Below, in pieces: positions 28,091-51,131 of a DNA stretch of 64,000 bases. The notes beneath the pieces are model-generated. The model ran no database searches. It was not told the origin of the DNA and saw nothing but the letters and a program-made list of their open reading frames with translations. This DNA is from Halobellus rarus (GTDB taxonomy: Archaea; Halobacteriota; Halobacteria; Halobacteriales; Haloferacaceae): contig NZ_JANHDI010000016.1 in assembly GCF_024494595.1 (NCBI RefSeq), positions 1 through 64,000 of the forward strand. Reading direction: 5' to 3'. Every line of letters begins with the position of its first letter. The first letter of the stretch is position 1. The translations under genes and the position numbers were made by a program.

Positions 28091-29089
28091 CTAATCCAGC
28101 GAGAAGATCCCGCGGGACGCAGTCAGTCGCGCGACGGTCGAGAGCCGGAGCACATAGGCGGTCAACACGAGGTAGGGTGCGAACGAGATCGTAAACGCGA
28201 CGGCGATGAACGGCTGTAGCACCGGGATACCAAGGATCTGGCCGTCGGGAAAGACTCTTCCGTTGATTGTTATAATCGTTGCGGCGTTGAACAAGATGGC
28301 CGGGAGCGCGACGACCAGCAGCGTCTGGGACAGCTGTGACACCTCTTTCGTATAATAAAGGGTTTTGAAATACTCCTTTCCGATGGCGAACAGTTCGAAC
28401 GCTTCGATGAGGTCGTCGAATCGTTCTGTCGAGGCCTCACGGGACGAATCGAGCGTTCGTGACCGTTCGATGTGCGAACCGTAGTCGAACCCGATCCCCT
28501 TCCAGAGGACGGCGAACTCCGCGCCGGAGGTCTCCTCGACTGCCCCGAGCCGCTCGGCGGCCTCCGAGACCGAGGTCACGAACTCCTCGATATCCTCGAC
28601 GAAATCCTGTTCGGCACCGTCTAACTCCTTCGTGAGCTCTTGCGCACGAGCACTGATAGTTTTGGACATCGCTCTCAGGAACGACGAGGGATTGGACGGA
28701 TTCTCCCCGTTGTCGGTCAGATCGCCGAGGTTCCGACGGAACTTTATCGCACCCTGAATCCGATTTTCCTGGTTTTCGACGGAGGTTATGTCGTGTGAGA
28801 GGACGATCGAGTTGATCGAGACGACGATGGAGACCAGTAGAATCATTCCGCTCAGGAGCGTATTGAGGATCGTCTGCACGGTCCTGGTGTCCGTCAGTAG
28901 CGTCTGTATCTCGAAGGTCCAGAACGTCGATAGAAGTAGGAAAGTCGTGAAGACCGAGGTGAGTAACGCTCCCGTCACCGCCAGCCGGTTCGCGTCGAGC
29001 AATATCCACCGTTTCAGGGCGAACCCGGTGGTCTCGTACGGGACGGGGAACCAGTCTCGCAACTCGATTGCTCTCCAGTCGAAACTCAT
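28091..29089 (-). CDS. Four-helix membrane protein, paralogue 1 of 3
   Basis: 332 residues. Two helices (about 36-58 and 70-95), a long soluble helical domain (100-255), then two more helices (255-325) ending YVLTAYVLRLSTVARLTASR. The order and signatures match the proteins at 44,286 and 48,086: 'VV.I..IVLS...' after helix 2, 'NPSNPSSFLRAMSKTISARA', and 'KEYFKTLYY' before helix 3. Unlike them it has no DUF4177 gene in front. ATG 29089 (MSFDWRAIEL) is used; a longer frame upstream is not protein-like. Function unknown. Confidence 0.82.
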   Translation of the reverse strand: MSFDWRAIELRDWFPVPYETTGFALKRWILLDANRLAVTGALLTSVFTTFLLLSTFWTFEIQTLLTDTRTVQTILNTLLSGMILLVSIVVSINSIVLSHDITSVENQENRIQGAIKFRRNLGDLTDNGENPSNPSSFLRAMSKTISARAQELTKELDGAEQDFVEDIEEFVTSVSEAAERLGAVEETSGAEFAVLWKGIGFDYGSHIERSRTLDSSREASTERFDDLIEAFELFAIGKEYFKTLYYTKEVSQLSQTLLVVALPAILFNAATIITINGRVFPDGQILGIPVLQPFIAVAFTISFAPYLVLTAYVLRLSTVARLTASRGIFSLD

Positions 29090-29274: not shown

Positions 29275-30582
29275 CTACGGTCGGTCACGGAAGAGCGCGA
29301 GATGTCTGAGTGCCATCCGATTTTCGATTCCGCCGGCAAGCGCGCCCGACAGCACACCGAGCGTGCTGATGAAGGCCCCGACACGGACGAGGTCGACGAG
29401 CCCGACCGTGGGGTCCTCGAGGCTCGGCCAGTTCGTCATCAGGTTCGGCGGGAAGACGGCGAACTCGATCAGAAGTATGATCGACCCGACGAGGACGAAG
29501 AGTCCCATCATCGCCGCGACGAGGATGAAGAACACTGTCACGTTCACCAGTGCCATGTGTTCGGTGATCACCTGGCTGCGCTCTCGCGGGAACGACAGCC
29601 GCTGGACGTATAGGAGATGGACTGCGGCAGCGATGATACTCCCGACGGCGAACAGCGCGGTGGTGCGGTTGGTCAGGTTCAGCCCGACGTCCCACGCCTC
29701 GGCGCTGAACACGAGGATCAGCGTCGGCGTCACTGCGGCCGTCGAGAGACGCGGAAGTGAGAACGGGAGCAGCGGTGCGCGACTCTGCAGCAGCGTCGCG
29801 ACGACGATACCCGGATTCCGCACGAGGCTCACCGCGTGAAACGCCAACCTTCGGGGCCGACCTCGCGAGACGTCCTCCTCGGGGATGCGGGTAGCGATCT
29901 CTCTGAGGTAATCTGTGATGTCCGCATCGAACGGCGGGACACGCCGCCGGGAGGGATCGAACGAGAACGGAGCCATCACGCCGCTATCACTGTGATCCGC
30001 ACGAAACACGTGGCCCAGGAGGTGGACGAGGAGGGTCGCAGCGTTCCAGCGGACGGCCGCCGAGTCGAGCGCTCCGACCGTCTCCCGGCCGGGGATTCGC
30101 AGAAGTCGTCGCGTCGAGACGACGACGACGCGGGCGAGCGGGGAGGCGAGCCCCTCGACCGATTTCTCATCTCGCGTGGTCAGGGGCACGTCGGTCACGA
30201 CGACGACGAGGTCGTACGGTCGTTTCATCATATGATGTGCGGCCTCGTCGAGGAACTCGGACGGCCGTCGGGGGGCGCCGTCGGTGAGCGGATCCGGTTC
30301 GGCACAGTTGACCCGCCAGGCCGCGTCCGTGGCTGCCGCCAGCTCATTGACGCCGTCGCGGGCCATCTGATCGGCAAACGATTGCAACGGTTCGACATCG
30401 CCACCCGGCGAGTGAGCAATGAGAACTCCCACGTCGATCTGTGGCGCATCCGCGTCGTCACTTCGGTCGTCCACAGTCGGCGGGTCGGACCCCATCGCCT
30501 CCTCGCCGTCAGTTACTGCACTACCTGCGGAATCCCGGTCGACGTCGGAGGCCTTGGGATTTATCGCCTGAGCGTCGTCCAT
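29275..30582 (-). CDS. Membrane-anchored metzincin-like protein lacking the catalytic Glu
   Basis: 435 residues. Residues 1-45 are acidic and disordered. Residues 48-210 form a soluble domain with a metzincin-like site: His187, His191 and His197 in HLLGHVFRADH with the exact HxxxHxxxxxH spacing, followed by Met203 in SGVMAPF, a plausible Met-turn. The usual Glu after the first His is Leu188 and the Gly is Arg194, so metal binding is possible but peptidase chemistry is doubtful. Residues 235-430 carry about four to five helices. ATG 30582 follows an adjacent GTG. Family name not known to me. Confidence 0.75.
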   Translation of the reverse strand: MDDAQAINPKASDVDRDSAGSAVTDGEEAMGSDPPTVDDRSDDADAPQIDVGVLIAHSPGGDVEPLQSFADQMARDGVNELAAATDAAWRVNCAEPDPLTDGAPRRPSEFLDEAAHHMMKRPYDLVVVVTDVPLTTRDEKSVEGLASPLARVVVVSTRRLLRIPGRETVGALDSAAVRWNAATLLVHLLGHVFRADHSDSGVMAPFSFDPSRRRVPPFDADITDYLREIATRIPEEDVSRGRPRRLAFHAVSLVRNPGIVVATLLQSRAPLLPFSLPRLSTAAVTPTLILVFSAEAWDVGLNLTNRTTALFAVGSIIAAAVHLLYVQRLSFPRERSQVITEHMALVNVTVFFILVAAMMGLFVLVGSIILLIEFAVFPPNLMTNWPSLEDPTVGLVDLVRVGAFISTLGVLSGALAGGIENRMALRHLALFRDRP

Positions 30583-36026: not shown

Positions 36027-37040
36027 TTACTCAGTCTCTGCATCGATCACTCGTTCTTCGCTTTCGGTATTCTCGTTCGAATGCGCTGCCCGGTGGGCGT
36101 TTTTGTACTGCTGGATTTTTCGGTAGAGCAGGTAGCCAAAGCCCCCCACATACAGTACAACATAGACGAAGAACGCGGGTAGTTGGGGGAGGCCCGTCAC
36201 GGCCTGTATCAACCCGCTTCCAATTCCGACGGTGGTGTTGTAGGTTGCGTGGATTAGCGCGGCGATGATGAGCCCCTTTACGATGATTGGACCGCGATTT
36301 CCCGGGTTGAACTTCGCTAACCCGAGGTAATATCCCGCGAACGCCGAGTAGACGACGTGCCCGGGCCCGGCTAACGCGCGGGTCGCAGTGATATCACCGC
36401 CGATACCGATCAGGTCCAAGCCGAGAGACAGACCGCCGACTTCTCCGACTGCTCCACTGATGTAGATGGCGTTTTCGATGGTAGCGAATCCGAGTCCGGC
36501 GATAGCGCCGTACACTGCACCGTCGATAACTGCGGCGAACCGAGCGTCGTTATACGCATAGAGCCGTACAGCGAGCAGTTTTACCGACTCCTCCACGGGG
36601 CCCACGATGAGGAAGAAAAACAGAACCATCCCGAGACCACCGAGCGCCGTGAAAAACGGCTGAAACACGCTATTGGCAACGGCAGCAAACCCTGCGGTGA
36701 GCACGCCAAGTATGAAGGTAGCCGCGAGCAGCGATAGCGGTTCGCTGGTCGTTACATCGCTGTACCAGACGTACGCCGCCAACGCCAGCGCGGGGAGGGC
36801 AGAGAGGATCGCTAGCACGCCGATTAAGGGCTCCCGCAGAATACTGAGTCCACCGACGGCGAGGAAAATCAATAGTGCGAGCAGGACCAGAAGAATCTGG
36901 CCGGTACGAACCGCCACCCAGTAGACCGCAACCGAGACACTATCGAGGAGAGACCGCCGTTCCCACGTTGAGATCCCGTAGAGATCCCGCTCGTCGTCCA
37001 CCGCCTCGACAGGATCCGTTACATTTTCTACGTCTTGCAT
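36027..37040 (-). CDS. PrsW-family intramembrane protease
   Basis: 337 residues, about eight helices. Family signatures are present in order: VGPVEESVKLLAVRLYA (the EE-x-x-K motif), GAIAGLGFATIENAIY, GPGHVVYSAFAGYYLG and ALIHATYN. PrsW enzymes cut membrane-bound anti-sigma factors in Bacillus; archaeal substrates are unknown. A soluble acidic N-terminus (1-40) and C-terminus (HRAAHSNENTESEERV) flank the core. No obvious operon partner. Confidence 0.9.
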   Translation of the reverse strand: MQDVENVTDPVEAVDDERDLYGISTWERRSLLDSVSVAVYWVAVRTGQILLVLLALLIFLAVGGLSILREPLIGVLAILSALPALALAAYVWYSDVTTSEPLSLLAATFILGVLTAGFAAVANSVFQPFFTALGGLGMVLFFFLIVGPVEESVKLLAVRLYAYNDARFAAVIDGAVYGAIAGLGFATIENAIYISGAVGEVGGLSLGLDLIGIGGDITATRALAGPGHVVYSAFAGYYLGLAKFNPGNRGPIIVKGLIIAALIHATYNTTVGIGSGLIQAVTGLPQLPAFFVYVVLYVGGFGYLLYRKIQQYKNAHRAAHSNENTESEERVIDAETE

Positions 37041-39295: not shown

Positions 39296-40111
39296 ATGAG
39301 TTTCCAATACACTCACACGGCCCAAAACGCCGTCCAGATCGTGCGGGGCATCGCTCACGAAACTCGAAATAAGAACGTCCCATTCATGGCGGGGAGCATT
39401 GCGTATTCGGCGTTCGTCTCACTGCTGCCCCTCGTGCTGCTGTTGGTGATCGCGGCGTCTGCGCTCGGCGGCGAACGGATGGTCAGCTACGTCCGACGCG
39501 TCACGGAGAGTTACCTCACGCCGACCGGACAGTCCCTGTTGACCGATGGCATCGGCCAGACAGGCAGTCAAACCGGGCTCTCGATCCTCGGGATCGTCGT
39601 CCTCCTCTGGGGAGTGCTGAGGGTTTTTCGTGCGCTCGATACGGCTTTCTCGACGATTTACGACACGCAGCTGAAGAACGATCTCCTCAATCAGCTCAGA
39701 GACGGGGTCGTGGTACTGGTATCCCTCGGCGTCGCGTTGTTAGCGGTGTTCGTCGCGGGGTTGGGGCTCCGTTTCGTCCCGAACCTCCCGTTCCCGGGGC
39801 TGGTGAGCGAGATGTTGCTGATTGTCGGCCTTTCGATCGTGTTCGTTCCCATCTACTACGTGTTCCCCGACGTGGACCTGTCTCTCAAGATGGTTCTACC
39901 AGGGGCCGTGGTTGCGGCTATCGGATGGGCGCTACTCAAGGCGGGGTTCGGCATCTACGTCGCGTACTCGTCGACACAGGATGTATACGGTGTTCTCGGT
40001 GGTGTGATGCTCCTGATCACGTTTCTCTATTTCGGAGCACTGCTGATCCTGATCGGCGCCACTACGAACGTCGTCCTCATGGGAAGCCGCCCCGTCGAGG
40101 GGGCGAGATAG
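39296..40111 (+). CDS. YihY/BrkB-family membrane protein
   Basis: 271 residues, six helices. The N-terminal signature PFMAGSIAYSAFVSLLPLVL and the later WGVLRVFRALDTAFSTIYD and LYFGALLILIGATTNVVL are those of the YihY/BrkB (formerly RNase BN-like) family. A general membrane protein of unsettled function. Monocistronic as far as visible. Confidence 0.9.
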   Translation: MSFQYTHTAQNAVQIVRGIAHETRNKNVPFMAGSIAYSAFVSLLPLVLLLVIAASALGGERMVSYVRRVTESYLTPTGQSLLTDGIGQTGSQTGLSILGIVVLLWGVLRVFRALDTAFSTIYDTQLKNDLLNQLRDGVVVLVSLGVALLAVFVAGLGLRFVPNLPFPGLVSEMLLIVGLSIVFVPIYYVFPDVDLSLKMVLPGAVVAAIGWALLKAGFGIYVAYSSTQDVYGVLGGVMLLITFLYFGALLILIGATTNVVLMGSRPVEGAR

Positions 40112-40313: not shown

Positions 40314-40517
40314 ATGGTACTGGCAGTACTCAATAGAGTCGCACCCGTTCCTCTCCAGTTCGGTGGGGACCTCATCGGACTCGCAATCCTGTTCTTGATT
40401 CTCGCAGTGATCGCAGCAGTGGTTGGCGCCAGGGGGGTCGCCGGGATCAGTATGAATATCGCCAAGTGGCTCGTCATCATCTTCGTGGTGCTGGCGATTG
40501 TCACGTTCATACTCTAG
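40314..40517 (+). CDS. DUF1328-like small membrane protein
   Basis: 67 residues, two helices: [20 protein letters not shown] and [18 protein letters not shown], joined by a turn with GVAGISMNI. This fits the DUF1328 (YtjA) type of two-helix protein. Function unknown. Confidence 0.75.
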
Positions 40518-44082: not shown

Positions 44083-44289
44083 ATGTCCGAATCAGAAGCG
44101 ATCCACTGGGAGTACGAGACGCTGCGCCCGCGACGCGATGAAACCAAAAAAGAAGCAGAGGATCCGAAAGCGGAGTTGAATCAGCTCGGTGCGGAGGGCT
44201 GGGAGTTTGTGGAGACGATCGACTACGAGGGAGGCGGCACCAAGTACCTCGTTTTCAAGCGACCGGCCCAGTCGAGTGAGCCTGTATGA
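44083..44289 (+). CDS. DUF4177-like small protein, copy 1
   Basis: 68 residues: IHWEYETLRP at the start, then LNQLGAEGWEFVETIDYEGG and KYLVFKR, the DUF4177 pattern 'WEY..L....LN.LG.EGWE.V.....GG....LVFKR'. Its stop overlaps the start of a four-helix membrane protein (ATGA). The same two-gene order recurs at 47,908-49,081, so the small protein is likely a soluble partner of the membrane protein. Confidence 0.85.
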   Translation: MSESEAIHWEYETLRPRRDETKKEAEDPKAELNQLGAEGWEFVETIDYEGGGTKYLVFKRPAQSSEPV

Positions 44290-45302
44290 CTGACGAGAGC
44301 GACATCGGTACGGCCAACACGATGCGTGAGCGCGCCGACGAGAGTCGGATAAAGCTCTGGCTGCTGCTGCGCGCGAACCGCCTTCTCGTCTCCAGCGTCC
44401 TGACCAGTGCCGTGTTCGTCGCATTCGTGATCGGTGTCGCCGTCCTCGACCCACCGTTTTCACGGCAAATCGAGTCCGGCGACATGATCGATACGATGTT
44501 CTCGACCATGATCACCGTCATCGTGACTGGGACGACACTCGTCGTCACGATCGGTCAGCTCGTTCTCACCCAAGAGAACGGCCCGCTCGGCGATCAACGC
44601 GAGCGTATGGCCAGTTCGATGGATTTCCGGGACTTTACCGAAGAATTAATCGGCGCTCCGAGTCCTGCCGATCCATCCGAATTCCTCCGGCAGATCATCG
44701 GAGCCACGGCACAACGGGCGACGGTTCTTCGAGAGTCTATCGGCAAGAACAGTGACGAGGATCTCCGAGAAGAGGTCGAGGAGTTCGCTGAAAGCGTCAC
44801 TGGGAACGCCGACACGGTACGTGACCAACTTGAGGGTGCGCAGTTCGGCTCGTTCGATGTGGTATTCGCCGCACTGAATTTCAATTATAGCTGGAAGATT
44901 TTCCAAGTCGAACGTCTCGCGGACGAATACGAAGAGAGCCTCACTGAGGAAGAACACGGCTTGCTTGACGACCTCAAAACATCGCTGTCTCTCTTTGGTC
45001 CGGCACGCGAACACATCAAGACGCTGTACTTCCAGTGGGAACTCATCAACTTGTCTCAAATGATTCTCTATGCTGCAGTCCCGGCAGTGACCGTTGCGGG
45101 TATTATGGTCGCAATCGTCGATGCGGGGACGTTCCCGGGAAGCACACTCGGTTTCGATCACATCATCCTCGTCGTGGGCGGTGCGTTTGCGGTGACGCTC
45201 GTTCCGTTCATGCTGTTCGTCTCGTACGTCCTCCGCATCCTCACCATCGCGAAACGGACACTTGCCATCGAACCGCTGCTCCTCCGCGGATCACAACGAT
45301 GA
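44286..45302 (+). CDS. Four-helix membrane protein, paralogue 2 of 3
   Basis: 338 residues. Helices at about 34-57 and 68-95, a soluble helical domain (100-250) and helices at 258-285 and 295-320. It shares with the copy at 48,086 the stretches TGTTLVVTIGQLVL, PADPSEFLRQIIGATAQRA, SFDVVFAALNFNYSWK and LFVSYVLRILTIAKRTLAIE. Translationally coupled to the DUF4177 gene in front. Function unknown; the architecture resembles a membrane-anchored signalling or gating protein rather than a transporter. Confidence 0.85.
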   Translation: MTDESDIGTANTMRERADESRIKLWLLLRANRLLVSSVLTSAVFVAFVIGVAVLDPPFSRQIESGDMIDTMFSTMITVIVTGTTLVVTIGQLVLTQENGPLGDQRERMASSMDFRDFTEELIGAPSPADPSEFLRQIIGATAQRATVLRESIGKNSDEDLREEVEEFAESVTGNADTVRDQLEGAQFGSFDVVFAALNFNYSWKIFQVERLADEYEESLTEEEHGLLDDLKTSLSLFGPAREHIKTLYFQWELINLSQMILYAAVPAVTVAGIMVAIVDAGTFPGSTLGFDHIILVVGGAFAVTLVPFMLFVSYVLRILTIAKRTLAIEPLLLRGSQR

Positions 45303-45381
45303 GGCGTCAGAGTTCTGCTTAGCGCTCGCCTGGGATTTTGATCTATTGGTCCCGTCCCGAGTCCCGAATGCCAGAGCAGAC

Positions 45382-45560
45382 TCAGTTGAGGATGAGCGGT
45401 CCCGTCGGGGGGTCTGTCTGGCGAGCGTCGTGAGCCGCAGGATGTACGAAGTAAACCCGAAATTGGTAGGTTCGAGAGGTCGAACACGGCACTGACGACC
45501 CAGGGGAAATCTCGATCTCGAGGAACGTCCTGGGGAACGTCGGCGCATCGACTGCCCCCC
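45382..45560 (-). pseudogene. Fragment of a fourth four-helix paralogue
   Basis: On the minus strand, two frames together rebuild the family's C-terminus: VDAPTFPRTFLEIE (compare VDPTTFTGTFLGIE in the 48,086 copy), then FTSYILRLTTLARQT, then PPTGPLILN and stop (compare TLSMGPLMLS). Frameshifts and loss of helix 3 show decay. It lies back to back with the intact copy at 44,286 and in the opposite orientation. Confidence 0.7.
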
Positions 45561-46088
45561 GTTGAGTCAACCTTTCGATAATTCGAGGCTCTCGTAGGCC
45601 CACTGAGGGCATATCGGTGCCGACGCGTTCGATAACGTCTCTTAGCGGGATGACTCTGGAGACAGTAAGCTCGGTGTGTCCGAATGGGTCTGGAATATAT
45701 TAATTAGACTTCTTGCGGCCACTATCCCCTCCCGTAGCTCATAATACCGACAGAATACGTTTCTAAGGGCTCTGGTGAATCGCAAGACAACATCGAATTG
45801 GGCTAATTGGCTACTGAAAATCGAGGCGAATAATCACCAAATCTCGGTTAATGGGATGATTTGTTCACGTAATGACGTGAATAGACTCCTCAGATGAACA
45901 ACTACTGCCACCCATCAACAGCAGGACCTACCGCTCTATAGCGATTCACCAAAACCGTTCTAAGTATTTCGGCGTACTCAATACACTCTCAACATAATAG
46001 AAACCATATTATTGATCCAGATACTCAAAACACAGCCCGTTCGTGAAAATATTATATATCTAATGCTATTCGGCTCGGACTTCGTGCT
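45561..46088. other. AT-rich intergenic region before the levansucrase gene
   Basis: No gene seen. 45,690-46,070 is strongly AT-rich and stop-rich. ATTATATAT at about 46,048-46,057 is a TATA-like element some 32-41 bases before the levansucrase GTG. Confidence 0.5.
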
Positions 46089-47582
46089 GTGGACTCGAAT
46101 CCCATAGACACGGACGACGAGCGAACGGAGAGCAGTTCGGTCAGCAACACACGGCGGCAGTTCATCGTCGGGTCGGCTGGTGCCCTCGGAGGTCTCGCTG
46201 TCGGTAGCGGGGTCGTTGACACCGTAGCTGCCGACGAGCACCAGGGCGACGAGACCGGTACCCCGAACGGATCCGAATCGGATCAGACACCCGCTTGGAC
46301 AGTAGAGGCAGCCGGTCAAATCGAACTAAACGACGCGAATACGATCCCAATCATCCGGAGGCTCGACGACTCGTTCCCGGGCTTGCACGTGTGGGACACG
46401 TGGCCGCTCCGGGACCGCGATGGATCGGTCGCAAGTGTGAACGGTTGGTCGATCCAGTTCGCGCTCACTTCACCGAGTGGGGTGCTCCCCGGCAAACGCC
46501 ACGACATCGCCGAGATCAGATACTTTTACTCTCGGGAGGGCTACGATTGGCACCTCGGTGGTCCGGTGTTCGTACCCGGGTCGGCAAAGGGGAACCGCCA
46601 GTGGGCAGCATCCGCAGTGTGGGATGGTGACAGCGAGGAACTGTTCATGTTCTACACGGCAACTGGTCGGAGTGGAAATCCCAACGACCCGCGGGGGGAA
46701 GGTATCGACATCACCTACGAGCAACGGCTGGCGCTCGCGGAAGGAACCAGTCTCCAGACGACGCGTCAGGGAGTCAGAATCACGGGAGAGTGGGAACACG
46801 AGATCATCCTAACCGCCGATGGCGAGTACTATCAGACCCAAGAACAGGCCGGAGACGGGATCATATACGCGTTCCGCGACCCGTGGTACTTCGAGGACCC
46901 GGAGAGCGGGAATCGGTACCTCGTCTTCGAGGGGAATACTCCGCTCGAGCCGGGTGAGGCGAACTGTGAGGCACAGGACCTGGAGCCGGGCGACTACTCC
47001 AGCGGTGTCGCGGCCACGGGTGCACAGTTCAACGGGAACATCGGCCTCGCGGTGTCGACGTCGGACGAGGACATGAGCGAGTGGGAGCTGCGTCCTCCGC
47101 TGCTCGAGGCGATCTGTGTCAATCAGCAACTGGAACGCGGCAATATCGTCGTCATGGATGACCGCTACTATCTCTTCTGTGACAGCCACAAGTTCACGTT
47201 CCCGCAGGGGCTCGACGGTCCGGACGGGATGTACGGGTTCGTCGCAGATTCGCTCCAGGGCGACTACGAACCGCTCAACGGAAGCGGACTCGTCCTCGCG
47301 AATCCCGCTGACCAGCCGTTCCAGACGTACTCCTGGATGCCCGTTCCGTACGACGACAACCAGATTGCGGTGTTGAGCTACTACAACTACCACGACCTCG
47401 GCGACGACACTCTCACCGGTGTCGGAAACCTCCCGCGTGAGGATCAGATGGCCAAATTCGGCGGGACGTTCGCCCCGACACTCGTGGTCGAACTGGACGG
47501 AGCCTCCACCGAAATCGTCGACACGCTCGACGGTGGCTTCCTCCCTTCGGAGAACTCGAACCCGCCGATCGATACGATGTAG
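46089..47582 (+). CDS. Levansucrase, GH68, Tat-secreted
   Basis: 497 residues from GTG 46089. TRRQFIVGSAGALGGLAVG is a twin-arginine signal with likely cleavage near residue 48 (TVAA). The GH68 triad is present: nucleophile Asp103 (VWDTWPL), stabiliser Asp264 (FRDPW) and acid/base Glu349 (QLERGN). It would split sucrose outside the cell and build levan or fructo-oligosaccharides. It stands alone in an AT-rich setting between two copies of the DUF4177 module. Confidence 0.93.
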   Translation: MDSNPIDTDDERTESSSVSNTRRQFIVGSAGALGGLAVGSGVVDTVAADEHQGDETGTPNGSESDQTPAWTVEAAGQIELNDANTIPIIRRLDDSFPGLHVWDTWPLRDRDGSVASVNGWSIQFALTSPSGVLPGKRHDIAEIRYFYSREGYDWHLGGPVFVPGSAKGNRQWAASAVWDGDSEELFMFYTATGRSGNPNDPRGEGIDITYEQRLALAEGTSLQTTRQGVRITGEWEHEIILTADGEYYQTQEQAGDGIIYAFRDPWYFEDPESGNRYLVFEGNTPLEPGEANCEAQDLEPGDYSSGVAATGAQFNGNIGLAVSTSDEDMSEWELRPPLLEAICVNQQLERGNIVVMDDRYYLFCDSHKFTFPQGLDGPDGMYGFVADSLQGDYEPLNGSGLVLANPADQPFQTYSWMPVPYDDNQIAVLSYYNYHDLGDDTLTGVGNLPREDQMAKFGGTFAPTLVVELDGASTEIVDTLDGGFLPSENSNPPIDTM

Positions 47583-47907
47583 ATCCAAATTGTCCAACGA
47601 TCCGCACAGATTGAGCACACGTGGCCAACGGAGGAACCGAACACAGGCAGCGCCGACAGCGACGAGGCTCCATCGGTCTCCTCGTGATTCCCCCGTCAAC
47701 CGTGGTGATGCAGCAGATCGGATGCAGAACTCAAACCGCAGACACCGTTGGATGTGGACGCTTCGCGAGGGACCTACCTGAGACTCATAATTGTGATCGA
47801 CGACGATACACGAGCACACCGCTCCGTTCTCGGTCAGTACACGGTGGGAAACAGCCAGTCACCAGAGTCATCACCGTGAGAGCCGATAGCAACTAACGGG
47901 TACCGAA
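47583..47907. other. Intergenic region after the levansucrase gene
   Basis: No gene, clear terminator or repeat seen. Confidence 0.5.
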
Positions 47908-48093
47908 ATGCATCAACAATGGGAGTACAAGACGCTCGATCCGCCAAAGGGACTGACCAAGCGAGAGACGGTCGATCCAACAGACGAACTCAACCGCCTC
48001 GGTGCAGAAGGCTGGGAACTCGCAGAGACGATCAGCTACGACGGTGGCGGCACGAAACTACTGCTGTTCAAACGCCCGGTCTCTCATGAGTGA
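47908..48093 (+). CDS. DUF4177-like small protein, copy 2
   Basis: 61 residues: QWEYKTLDPP, then LNRLGAEGWELAETISYDGG and LLLFKRP. It is closely similar to copy 1 at 44,083 across the whole DUF4177 core. Its stop overlaps the start of the next membrane protein gene by eight bases (ATGAGTGA). Confidence 0.85.
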   Translation: MHQQWEYKTLDPPKGLTKRETVDPTDELNRLGAEGWELAETISYDGGGTKLLLFKRPVSHE

Positions 48094-49081
48094 CCTCTCG
48101 ACGGACAGCACGCTACGTGAGCGGACGGACGTCAACAAGTACTGGTTCTGGTTGCTGCTCGGGGCCAACCGGTGGGTCGTCGCCGGCGGGCTCGCGTTCC
48201 TGATCTTCCTCGCGTTCATACTCTGGGGCGTGATGAAGCCGGTGTCGTTGCACTCGACTATGCAGTCGAGCGACATGGTCGAGACGGTATTCGCCAGCCT
48301 CGTCGGCGCGATCATCACGGGAACGACGCTCGTCGTCACGATCAATCAGCTCGTTCTCTCTCAGGAGATCGGCTCGCTCGGGAGCCAGCGCAGTCGGATG
48401 GACACGACGATGGATTTTCGCCAGAACACCGACGGCCTCCTCGGGATGACGACGCCCGCAGACCCGGCGGCCTACCTCTATGCGCTTATCGAAACGAGCG
48501 AACAGCGGGCAAAGACACTGCGAAACACGCTCTCCGGGACTGAAAACCAGGAACTCCACAAGAAGGCGGGCGAGTACGTCGACGACCTGTTGGAGAACGC
48601 CGACCACGCACGCGACCACCTCGAAGACACGGATTTCGGCACCTTCGACGTCGTATCGCCCGCGCTCGATTACAACTACGATCGGAAGATGCACGACGTT
48701 CGCCGGCTCGGGAGGGAGTACGAAGACTCCCTCACCGACGAGGAACGTGGCGCGTTCAGAGATCTGCTCGAGGCGCTCACGATGTACGGGGTGGTCCGCG
48801 AGTACATCAAGGACCTCTACATCCAGTGGGCGTTGGTGAAACTCTCACGAGCCATCCTGTACGCCGCAGTGATTGCACTCACCGTCGCTGGGGGGATGGT
48901 CGTCTTCGTCGACCCGACGACGTTTACCGGCACGTTCCTCGGCATCGAGAGCGTTCTCTGGGTGGTTAGCGCCGCGTTTGCCATCTCAGCGCTGCCATTT
49001 CTCCTCTTCACATCCTACATCCTGCGACTCGCGACGCTCGCCAAACAGACGCTCTCGATGGGACCGCTCATGCTTAGCTGA
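48086..49081 (+). CDS. Four-helix membrane protein, paralogue 3 of 3
   Basis: 331 residues, same plan as the 44,286 protein: helices about 28-50 and 62-90, soluble helical domain 95-245, helices 252-280 and 290-315. Shared stretches include TGTTLVVTINQLVLSQE, PADPAAYLYALIETSEQRAK, DVVSPALDYNYDRKMHDVRR and REYIKDLYIQWALVKLSRAI. ATG 48086 gives the overlap with the DUF4177 stop. Function unknown. Confidence 0.85.
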   Translation: MSDLSTDSTLRERTDVNKYWFWLLLGANRWVVAGGLAFLIFLAFILWGVMKPVSLHSTMQSSDMVETVFASLVGAIITGTTLVVTINQLVLSQEIGSLGSQRSRMDTTMDFRQNTDGLLGMTTPADPAAYLYALIETSEQRAKTLRNTLSGTENQELHKKAGEYVDDLLENADHARDHLEDTDFGTFDVVSPALDYNYDRKMHDVRRLGREYEDSLTDEERGAFRDLLEALTMYGVVREYIKDLYIQWALVKLSRAILYAAVIALTVAGGMVVFVDPTTFTGTFLGIESVLWVVSAAFAISALPFLLFTSYILRLATLAKQTLSMGPLMLS

Positions 49082-49453: not shown

Positions 49454-50182
49454 ATGACTGACTCGGACTCAGAGGAAGTCGACCCGACAGCGCGTGACCA
49501 GCGCGAGATCGGACGGGAAATGGTCGAACAGAGCACGGGTTTGGGTTCGGTGATGGCACACGCCTACCGCGGCGAAATGGACGAGGCGACGACGTGGCGG
49601 CAGCGTCTCGACCAAGCGACCACTTGGGCGGTGACGGTCATCGCAGCGATTCTGACGTGGGCATTTTCCAGCGGGGAGAATCCTCATTATATTCTTCTGG
49701 TCGGGGTCGTGGTCGTCACTCTCTTTCTCGGGATCGAAGCGCGTCGATACCGGCATTACGACGTCTACCGGTCGCGTATTCGGATGCTCCAGCAGAACCT
49801 CTTCGCGAACGCGCTCGACCCATCCGGGGGCGTGGAACATCCGAACTGGCGAGTAGAGCTCAGTAACGACTACCGGACGCCGACGCTGAAAGTTACCTTC
49901 GGAGAGGCACTCGCCAATCGACTTCGACGCATCTACCTCGCCTTGCTTGGAGTTTTGCTCGCTGCCTGGCTCTTCCGAATCACGGCGTTCTCGCCGCGCC
50001 AGGAGTGGCTCGCGACCGCCGCGATCGCCACCGTCCCCGGTGTGGTCGTGGTCGGCGTCGTCACCACGTTCTCCGCAGCGGTTCTCGGACTCGCATTCTG
50101 GCCCCGTGAACGGCATGCCAAAGGGGAGTTTCGCGAAGGCGATCCAGCGGCGTGGAAAGAGGAGGAGAACGACGATGGCTGA
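49454..50182 (+). CDS. DUF2270 membrane protein
   Basis: 242 residues. The DUF2270 core is evident: AHAYRGEMDEATTWRQRLDQ, two helices (about 55-90), RHYDVYRSRIRMLQQNLFA, then two C-terminal helices (155-220). ATG 49454 follows GGTTATACG by about 22-30 bases, so it is probably leaderless. The gene overlaps the kinase gene by eight bases. Function unknown. Confidence 0.85.
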   Translation: MTDSDSEEVDPTARDQREIGREMVEQSTGLGSVMAHAYRGEMDEATTWRQRLDQATTWAVTVIAAILTWAFSSGENPHYILLVGVVVVTLFLGIEARRYRHYDVYRSRIRMLQQNLFANALDPSGGVEHPNWRVELSNDYRTPTLKVTFGEALANRLRRIYLALLGVLLAAWLFRITAFSPRQEWLATAAIATVPGVVVVGVVTTFSAAVLGLAFWPRERHAKGEFREGDPAAWKEEENDDG

Positions 50183-51131
50183 CGATAGAAAACCAGCACC
50201 TGACGACCAGAACAGCCCCGCCGCGGACGGGAACGAACAGTGGGTCATCCTAAATCCGAAGAGCGGAACGGCAGACCACGTCGACGAGGTTCGCCAGTCC
50301 GCAGAGAAACGGGACTATACGATCCGAGAAACGACACACGAAGAACACGCGGTCCGGCTCGCGCAGGACGCTGCCGCGAACGACGTTGATCGACTGGCCG
50401 TCGCGGGTGGCGACGGTACGCTCCACGAAGTCGTCCGTGGCCTCGTGGCGGCATCTGCTCTCGGGACGGTGACCCTCGGTGTGATTCCGACGGGAACGGA
50501 GAACATCTTTGCAACCAACACTGGGGTAACAAGCATCGAAGAAGGATTCGAATTGCTCGACCACGGTGAGCGACGACGAATCGATGTCGGGTTCGCCGGA
50601 GGGGAACCGTTCGTCGTGTCGTGTATCGCCGGGTTACCTGCCGAGGTCAGCGTGGCAGCGTCAAGCGATCTGAAAGAACGGTTCGGTTCGCTGGCGTTCG
50701 TCGTCGCCAGTTTACAGGAAGTCACGGAGTTCGAGGGACTGCACATCGATCTCACTGCTATCTCGAACGGCGAGGAAACGACCTGGTCGGGAGAGGCGTT
50801 GTGTGTGCTCGTCGGGAACGTCCTGCGGTTCGTCAATCGTGGCGGGCAGGCCAACGTCGAGGACGGGCTTTTCGACGTCGTCCTCATCGAGCAGATGCCC
50901 GCGAGTGACATTCTGGCTGAAGCGACCGCGCACCGAGTATTTGGTCGCGATACCGAACACGTGCTCCATATGCAGGCGAGCCAACTAGAGATTCGAGGGA
51001 TCGACAGTGATCCGATCACGTTCAGTCTCGATGGTGAGCTAAACACCCATCACGAACTCGTGTTGTATACGGATCCGCAGTCGCTCACTGTCTGCGTGGG
51101 GCCAACGTACGAGGGCACGCACCCAGATTAG
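50175..51131 (+). CDS. Diacylglycerol/sphingosine kinase family lipid kinase
   Basis: 318 residues. NPKSG (about 27-31) and GGDGTLHEVVRG (about 76-87) are the DAGK catalytic-domain signatures, and VIPTGTENIFA is the family's 'GT.N.FA' loop. A C-terminal beta domain carries SLDGEL. It phosphorylates a lipid or related alcohol, perhaps archaetidyl lipids or a diacylglycerol-like precursor. Translationally coupled to DUF2270, which could supply membrane association. Confidence 0.9.
   Translation: MADDRKPAPDDQNSPAADGNEQWVILNPKSGTADHVDEVRQSAEKRDYTIRETTHEEHAVRLAQDAAANDVDRLAVAGGDGTLHEVVRGLVAASALGTVTLGVIPTGTENIFATNTGVTSIEEGFELLDHGERRRIDVGFAGGEPFVVSCIAGLPAEVSVAASSDLKERFGSLAFVVASLQEVTEFEGLHIDLTAISNGEETTWSGEALCVLVGNVLRFVNRGGQANVEDGLFDVVLIEQMPASDILAEATAHRVFGRDTEHVLHMQASQLEIRGIDSDPITFSLDGELNTHHELVLYTDPQSLTVCVGPTYEGTHPD

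Follow-up and report, generated by a model that had tools for sequence, protein, structure and literature searches.

The small protein sP36 of Methanosarcina mazei, 61 aa in length, relocates to the membrane on ammonium upshift and binds both AmtB1 and GlnK1 (PMC10714827). It was proposed to act as an inhibitor of AmtB1, by a mechanism that its authors suggest is ancient and extends to halophiles (PMC10714827). A second point of reference is the phage shock protein PspA; in H. volcanii, earlier work pointed out a transmembrane (TM) protein encoded downstream of pspA (PMC9239133).

Here we consider a 64,000-nucleotide stretch of Halobellus rarus DNA (contig NZ_JANHDI010000016.1, positions 1 to 64,000; the window), in which the same two overlapping genes occur at 44083-45302 and again at 47908-49081 (modules A and B). 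Each pair encodes an sP36-family small protein followed by a membrane protein with four TM helices (4-TM). The initial annotation had described both modules, along with a lone membrane paralogue at 28,091 (paralogue C) and an inverted wreck at 45,382, and all of these are present:

44083..44289, plus strand: module A sP36-family (DUF4177-like) small protein, 68 aa, assigned by NF053529 and DUF4177 profile scores
44286..45302, plus strand: module A 4-TM membrane protein, 338 aa, starting 4 nt inside the end of the sP36 gene, assigned by model, tree and topology
47908..48093, plus strand: module B sP36-family small protein, 61 aa, assigned by its NF053529 score
48086..49081, plus strand: module B 4-TM membrane protein, 331 aa, starting 8 nt inside the end of the sP36 gene, assigned by the tree
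28091..29089, minus strand: lone 4-TM paralogue C without an sP36 gene, outside the sP36-linked clade
45382..45552, minus strand: decayed 3' end of a B-type 4-TM gene, about 170 nt, convergent with module A and 75.6% identical at the nucleotide level to the 3' end of module B over 176 nt

Both small proteins exceed the curated cut-off of 50 bits for the NCBIfam sP36 family (NF053529), with 61.1 bits for module A (P0001) and 51.7 bits for module B (P0003). Each also matches DUF4177 (PF13783) at E of about 3e-5, narrowly missing its gathering score of 25 (24.5 bits for module A and 24.8 for module B). In an alignment of 58 sP36 members, W9, E10, Y11, L32, G39, W40 and R60 are invariant. AlphaFold2 predicts a beta-alpha-beta-beta fold (pLDDT 75.8), for which Foldseek found no PDB match at E<=0.001, and a PDB sequence search with the small protein returned chance coiled-coil or unrelated matches only.

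The membrane protein is modeled (AlphaFold2; pLDDT 81.9, pTM 0.73) with helices at 32-52, 67-97, 101-122, 130-152, 158-182, 190-214, 292-326 and a long one at 221-277. The description of this protein as a four-helix one thus holds for its TM part and fails for the whole, which in the model also includes cytosolic helices of about 150 residues in total. Counts of Lys and Arg residues across 152 homologues are 3.8 for the N-terminal segment, 15.2 for the central one and 4.4 for the C-terminal one, whereas the two short loops have 0.8 and 0.2. This positive-inside charge and the model show that both ends and the central domain lie inside. Pfam, NCBIfam, PADLOC and PHROGs yielded no usable match for the 4-TM protein, and weak matches to YtxH and DUF2254 were rejected. 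A PDB sequence search with the family profile likewise gave chance coiled-coil or unrelated matches, and Foldseek comparison of the model with the PDB and viral models produced nothing at E<=0.001.

Could the 4-TM protein be a bestrophin-like ion channel or transporter, gated by the small protein and without a direct role in membrane repair? Bestrophins are laid out as TM1-TM2, cytosolic helices and TM3-TM4. The model has the same order of elements, including a long helix that runs into TM3, and bestrophin homologues appear among its weak Foldseek matches. However, at E of about 0.7-1 and TM-scores of at most about 0.22 these matches do not establish a shared fold, and the protein lacks a Pfam match. 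We therefore regard a bestrophin-like channel as unlikely.

Our preferred reading, in which the small protein regulates its membrane partner, draws on how consistently the two genes occur together. In a sample of 194 haloarchaeal genomes, the 4-TM family is found in 181 and an sP36 match in 85, and 70 of the 71 sP36 genes that score at least 50 bits are immediately followed by a 4-TM gene. For 61 of the 71, a same-strand 4-TM gene was listed directly 3'; for nine of the other ten one was traced on fetched DNA, leaving L159 as the single exception. Genes that score under 50 bits have mixed contexts and some belong elsewhere; in two haloarchaeal genera (L178, L186) such a low-scoring sP36/DUF4177-like gene adjoins ileS, encoding isoleucyl-tRNA synthetase. 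When the candidate 4-TM start nearest to the sP36 stop is taken, 73 of the 93 distinct pairs have an ATG that overlaps that stop by 4 or 8 nt, rising to 81 if any start codon is allowed. Because this arrangement recurs across haloarchaea, chance is excluded as its cause, and the earlier proposal of a conserved, translationally coupled unit stands. A fixed stoichiometry, which had also been read from the translational overlap, does not follow from an overlap. The membrane gene, with between 0 and 11 copies per genome in the sample, is not the ubiquitous single-copy housekeeping gene that had been named as the refuting case. In Methanosarcinaceae no match to the 4-TM family was found. A single member outside Halobacteria in the phylum sample (L191, genome G211) has transposon-like ORFs nearby and was possibly transferred.

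A tree of 152 4-TM proteins, built by a quick search without bootstraps and with SH-aLRT support, gathers all 94 proteins with an adjacent sP36 gene into one clade of 103 rows (SH-aLRT 99). The idea that a DUF4177 gene always precedes the membrane gene is thus nearly true of this one clade and untrue of the 4-TM family as a whole. Within the clade, B-type proteins form one basal branch and A-type proteins fall in the other, while paralogue C sits outside it on a long branch. Such a topology leads us to reject recent local duplication of A, B and C and does not support the initial annotation's claim of repeated duplication within 21 kb. A search of the whole genome (E<=1) returned A, B and C as the only family members, with A and B 47% identical to each other and C 28-29% identical to them, values too low for recent local duplicates. 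By their sequences, A and B are old, divergent paralogues that are often linked.

Nine members of the sP36-linked clade carry no sP36 label. Several of these show decay of the small gene, which is internally deleted in L059 and reduced to its start in L052; four others have a nearby sP36 gene in the opposite orientation, and the locus of one further member is cut. Altogether, four Halorubrum/Halobellus species (L048, L050, L052, L059) have lost or truncated sP36 and kept the 4-TM gene, so sP36 is not essential to 4-TM function. Such decay in lineages that keep the 4-TM gene, together with the 4- or 8-nt overlap between stop and start that most pairs show, would suit a small ORF that serves mainly as a translational leader to couple and tune 4-TM synthesis, its product having no binding role. 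Yet the protein sequence is conserved, with invariant W, E, Y, G, W and R positions, and the Methanosarcina members of the family stand alone, one of them binding a transporter. A leader function of this kind appears improbable.

Placing the haloarchaeal small proteins in the sP36 family raises the question of whether they regulate AmtB/GlnK in trans as in M. mazei, their position before a 4-TM gene being incidental. They share an NCBIfam family with M. mazei sP36, AmtB matches occur in 183 of the 194 haloarchaea, and the mechanism has been put forward for halophiles (PMC10714827). Against this, 70 of 71 sP36 genes adjoin a 4-TM gene with a conserved overlap, four genomes (G047, G090, G157, G162) have the sP36-4-TM pair and no AmtB match, and sP36 is about as frequent without AmtB (4 of 11 genomes) as with it (81 of 183). 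AmtB therefore does not explain the distribution of sP36, and no adjacency of the pair to AmtB was seen. We consider regulation of AmtB in trans as the main function quite unlikely, though the distribution is compatible with an added role of sP36 in trans.

A different association emerges for the membrane protein. PspA is encoded in 190 of the 194 haloarchaeal genomes, mostly in one copy, and many 4-TM genes outside the sP36-linked clade lie just 3' of pspA. Among the 35 genomes for which all 4-TM matches and the place of pspA were listed, a 4-TM gene lies no more than 8 kb from pspA in 17, where about 0.34 would be expected by chance, and in 16 of these 17 it shares the strand of pspA; in a wider list, 38 of 40 4-TM genes do. 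The sP36-linked clade is not found beside pspA, and in H. rarus itself pspA is on another contig with no 4-TM gene nearby. Pfam recognized no PspB, PspC or LiaI/LiaF domain in the 4-TM protein. Several Natrialbaceae (L074, L075, L079, L080) carry tandem arrays of 4-TM paralogues near pspA, and one 4-TM copy is inverted in L075 and L065. The gene order is best explained if the entire 4-TM family is part of the envelope-maintenance network around PspA in haloarchaea.

With relatives beside pspA, the pair is more likely to be a regulator of envelope stress or transport than a defence system. The initial annotation had favored conflict, sensing or defence genes, and although the overlap of a small gene with a larger one for a membrane protein, the horizontal spread, the carriage on plasmids and the remnants would fit a toxin-antitoxin or anti-phage unit, we judge this very improbable, given that the paired proteins have no PADLOC match (the sole one, a weak match to ZorA at E=0.047, is for lone paralogue C), that no relative appears in phage records, that at least four species keep the 4-TM gene although their sP36 is no longer intact, contrary to a toxin-antitoxin pair, and that the family occurs in 181 of 194 haloarchaea with sP36 not required.

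The history of the locus points to movement. The A-type 4-TM protein of the window is 87-93% identical to those in genomes of other families; PspA, as a control, falls from 86-87% identity inside the genus to 79-81% across the family and 67-76% across the order. As A is so similar where PspA differs by 24-33%, and as sP36 is absent from five genomes of the same genus, the modules were probably acquired by horizontal transfer. Relatives are present on 65 plasmid records, module A often being plasmid-borne. Linkage of A and B recurs in several genomes, the genes between them differing: the gap is short in L005 and L094, and a Haloarcula plasmid has a formate/nitrite transporter there. In the window a levansucrase/invertase gene intervenes, and further neighbors include the following:

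46089-47582, plus strand: GH68 levansucrase/invertase with a Tat-like leader, between A and B; not between the modules in L005
49454..50182, plus strand: DUF2270 membrane protein, assigned by Pfam
36027-37040: PrsW-type protease
39296-40111: BrkB
40314-40517: DUF1328
50175-51131: YegS-like lipid kinase

A DUF2270 gene lies directly upstream or downstream of module A in other loci (L006-L008, L010, L011, L044, L067 and an H. rarus plasmid). The region from 27 to 51 kb is rich in envelope genes, the DUF2270 gene among them. Directly upstream of C, at 29275-30582 on the minus strand, is a gene for a 435-aa protein with a zincin-like HLLGHVFRADH motif, TM segments and no Pfam match.

The wreck after module A also has counterparts. 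Similar remnants directly follow A in L006, L102, L209 and L088, and L093 and L107 have an intact B-type gene convergent with A, about 80 nt away, which equals the distance between A and the wreck in the window. From its position and similarity, the wreck is probably the leftover of a convergent B copy. It is best read as the remnant of an inverted B copy common to several species and not as a recent local event.

We propose a model where each module is a two-gene operon whose second gene would be translationally coupled to the first. The product of the first gene is a small sP36-family protein of the cytosol with a beta-alpha-beta-beta fold, and that of the second is embedded in the membrane by four TM helices, its ends and a helical domain of about 150 residues being cytosolic. 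The small protein most likely docks on its own 4-TM partner from the cytosolic side and switches its activity, as M. mazei sP36 is proposed to do with AmtB1. The sP36-linked branch would then be a derived accessory version of the PspA-linked family, one that spreads horizontally, often on plasmids. What the data show is the pairing with its overlap, the single clade, the topology, the place of sister branches near pspA and the horizontal spread. Gene order alone does not show regulation; we infer the docking, whether control is positive or negative, the signal, and the role of the 4-TM protein as channel, transporter or PspA anchor. We give roughly even chances to the core of the model, in which a small cytosolic regulator of the sP36 type docks on a 4-TM protein, itself from an envelope family linked to PspA, and controls it.

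It is possible, if doubtful, that the reach of this arrangement is greater: the 4-TM family might be an unrecognized membrane partner of PspA, of which one branch swapped PspA for an sP36-type regulator and became a mobile, PspA-independent envelope-stress or channel module. If so, sP36 proteins would serve generally as small switches acting on a variety of membrane proteins and not as inhibitors of AmtB only. The sole characterized sP36 is proposed to inhibit an ammonium transporter, and the near-constant pairing in haloarchaea points to a different membrane partner. In addition, the analysis brings to light a membrane family that is widespread (181 of 194 genomes), unannotated and linked to PspA, whose network in archaea is described as largely unknown.

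How, then, does the pair compare with the systems described so far? With respect to phage shock networks, 4-TM relatives just 3' of pspA are reminiscent of the TM protein of H. volcanii (PMC9239133), whereas the sP36-linked branch is not beside pspA and no PspB, PspC or LiaI-type domain is recognized. Like the haloarchaeal members, which pass the same family cut-off, M. mazei sP36 is a small cytosolic protein with a conserved WEY...LN.LG..GWEL...FKRP core, and it targets a membrane transporter. Haloarchaeal and Methanosarcina sP36 proteins are about 28-36% identical. Only the haloarchaeal ones have a loop after strand 1 that is 4 residues longer (PPR..TKKEA.DP) and a GGGTK motif. In haloarchaea the sP36 genes come coupled to a 4-TM partner, while those loci examined in Methanosarcinaceae stand alone among varied neighbors.
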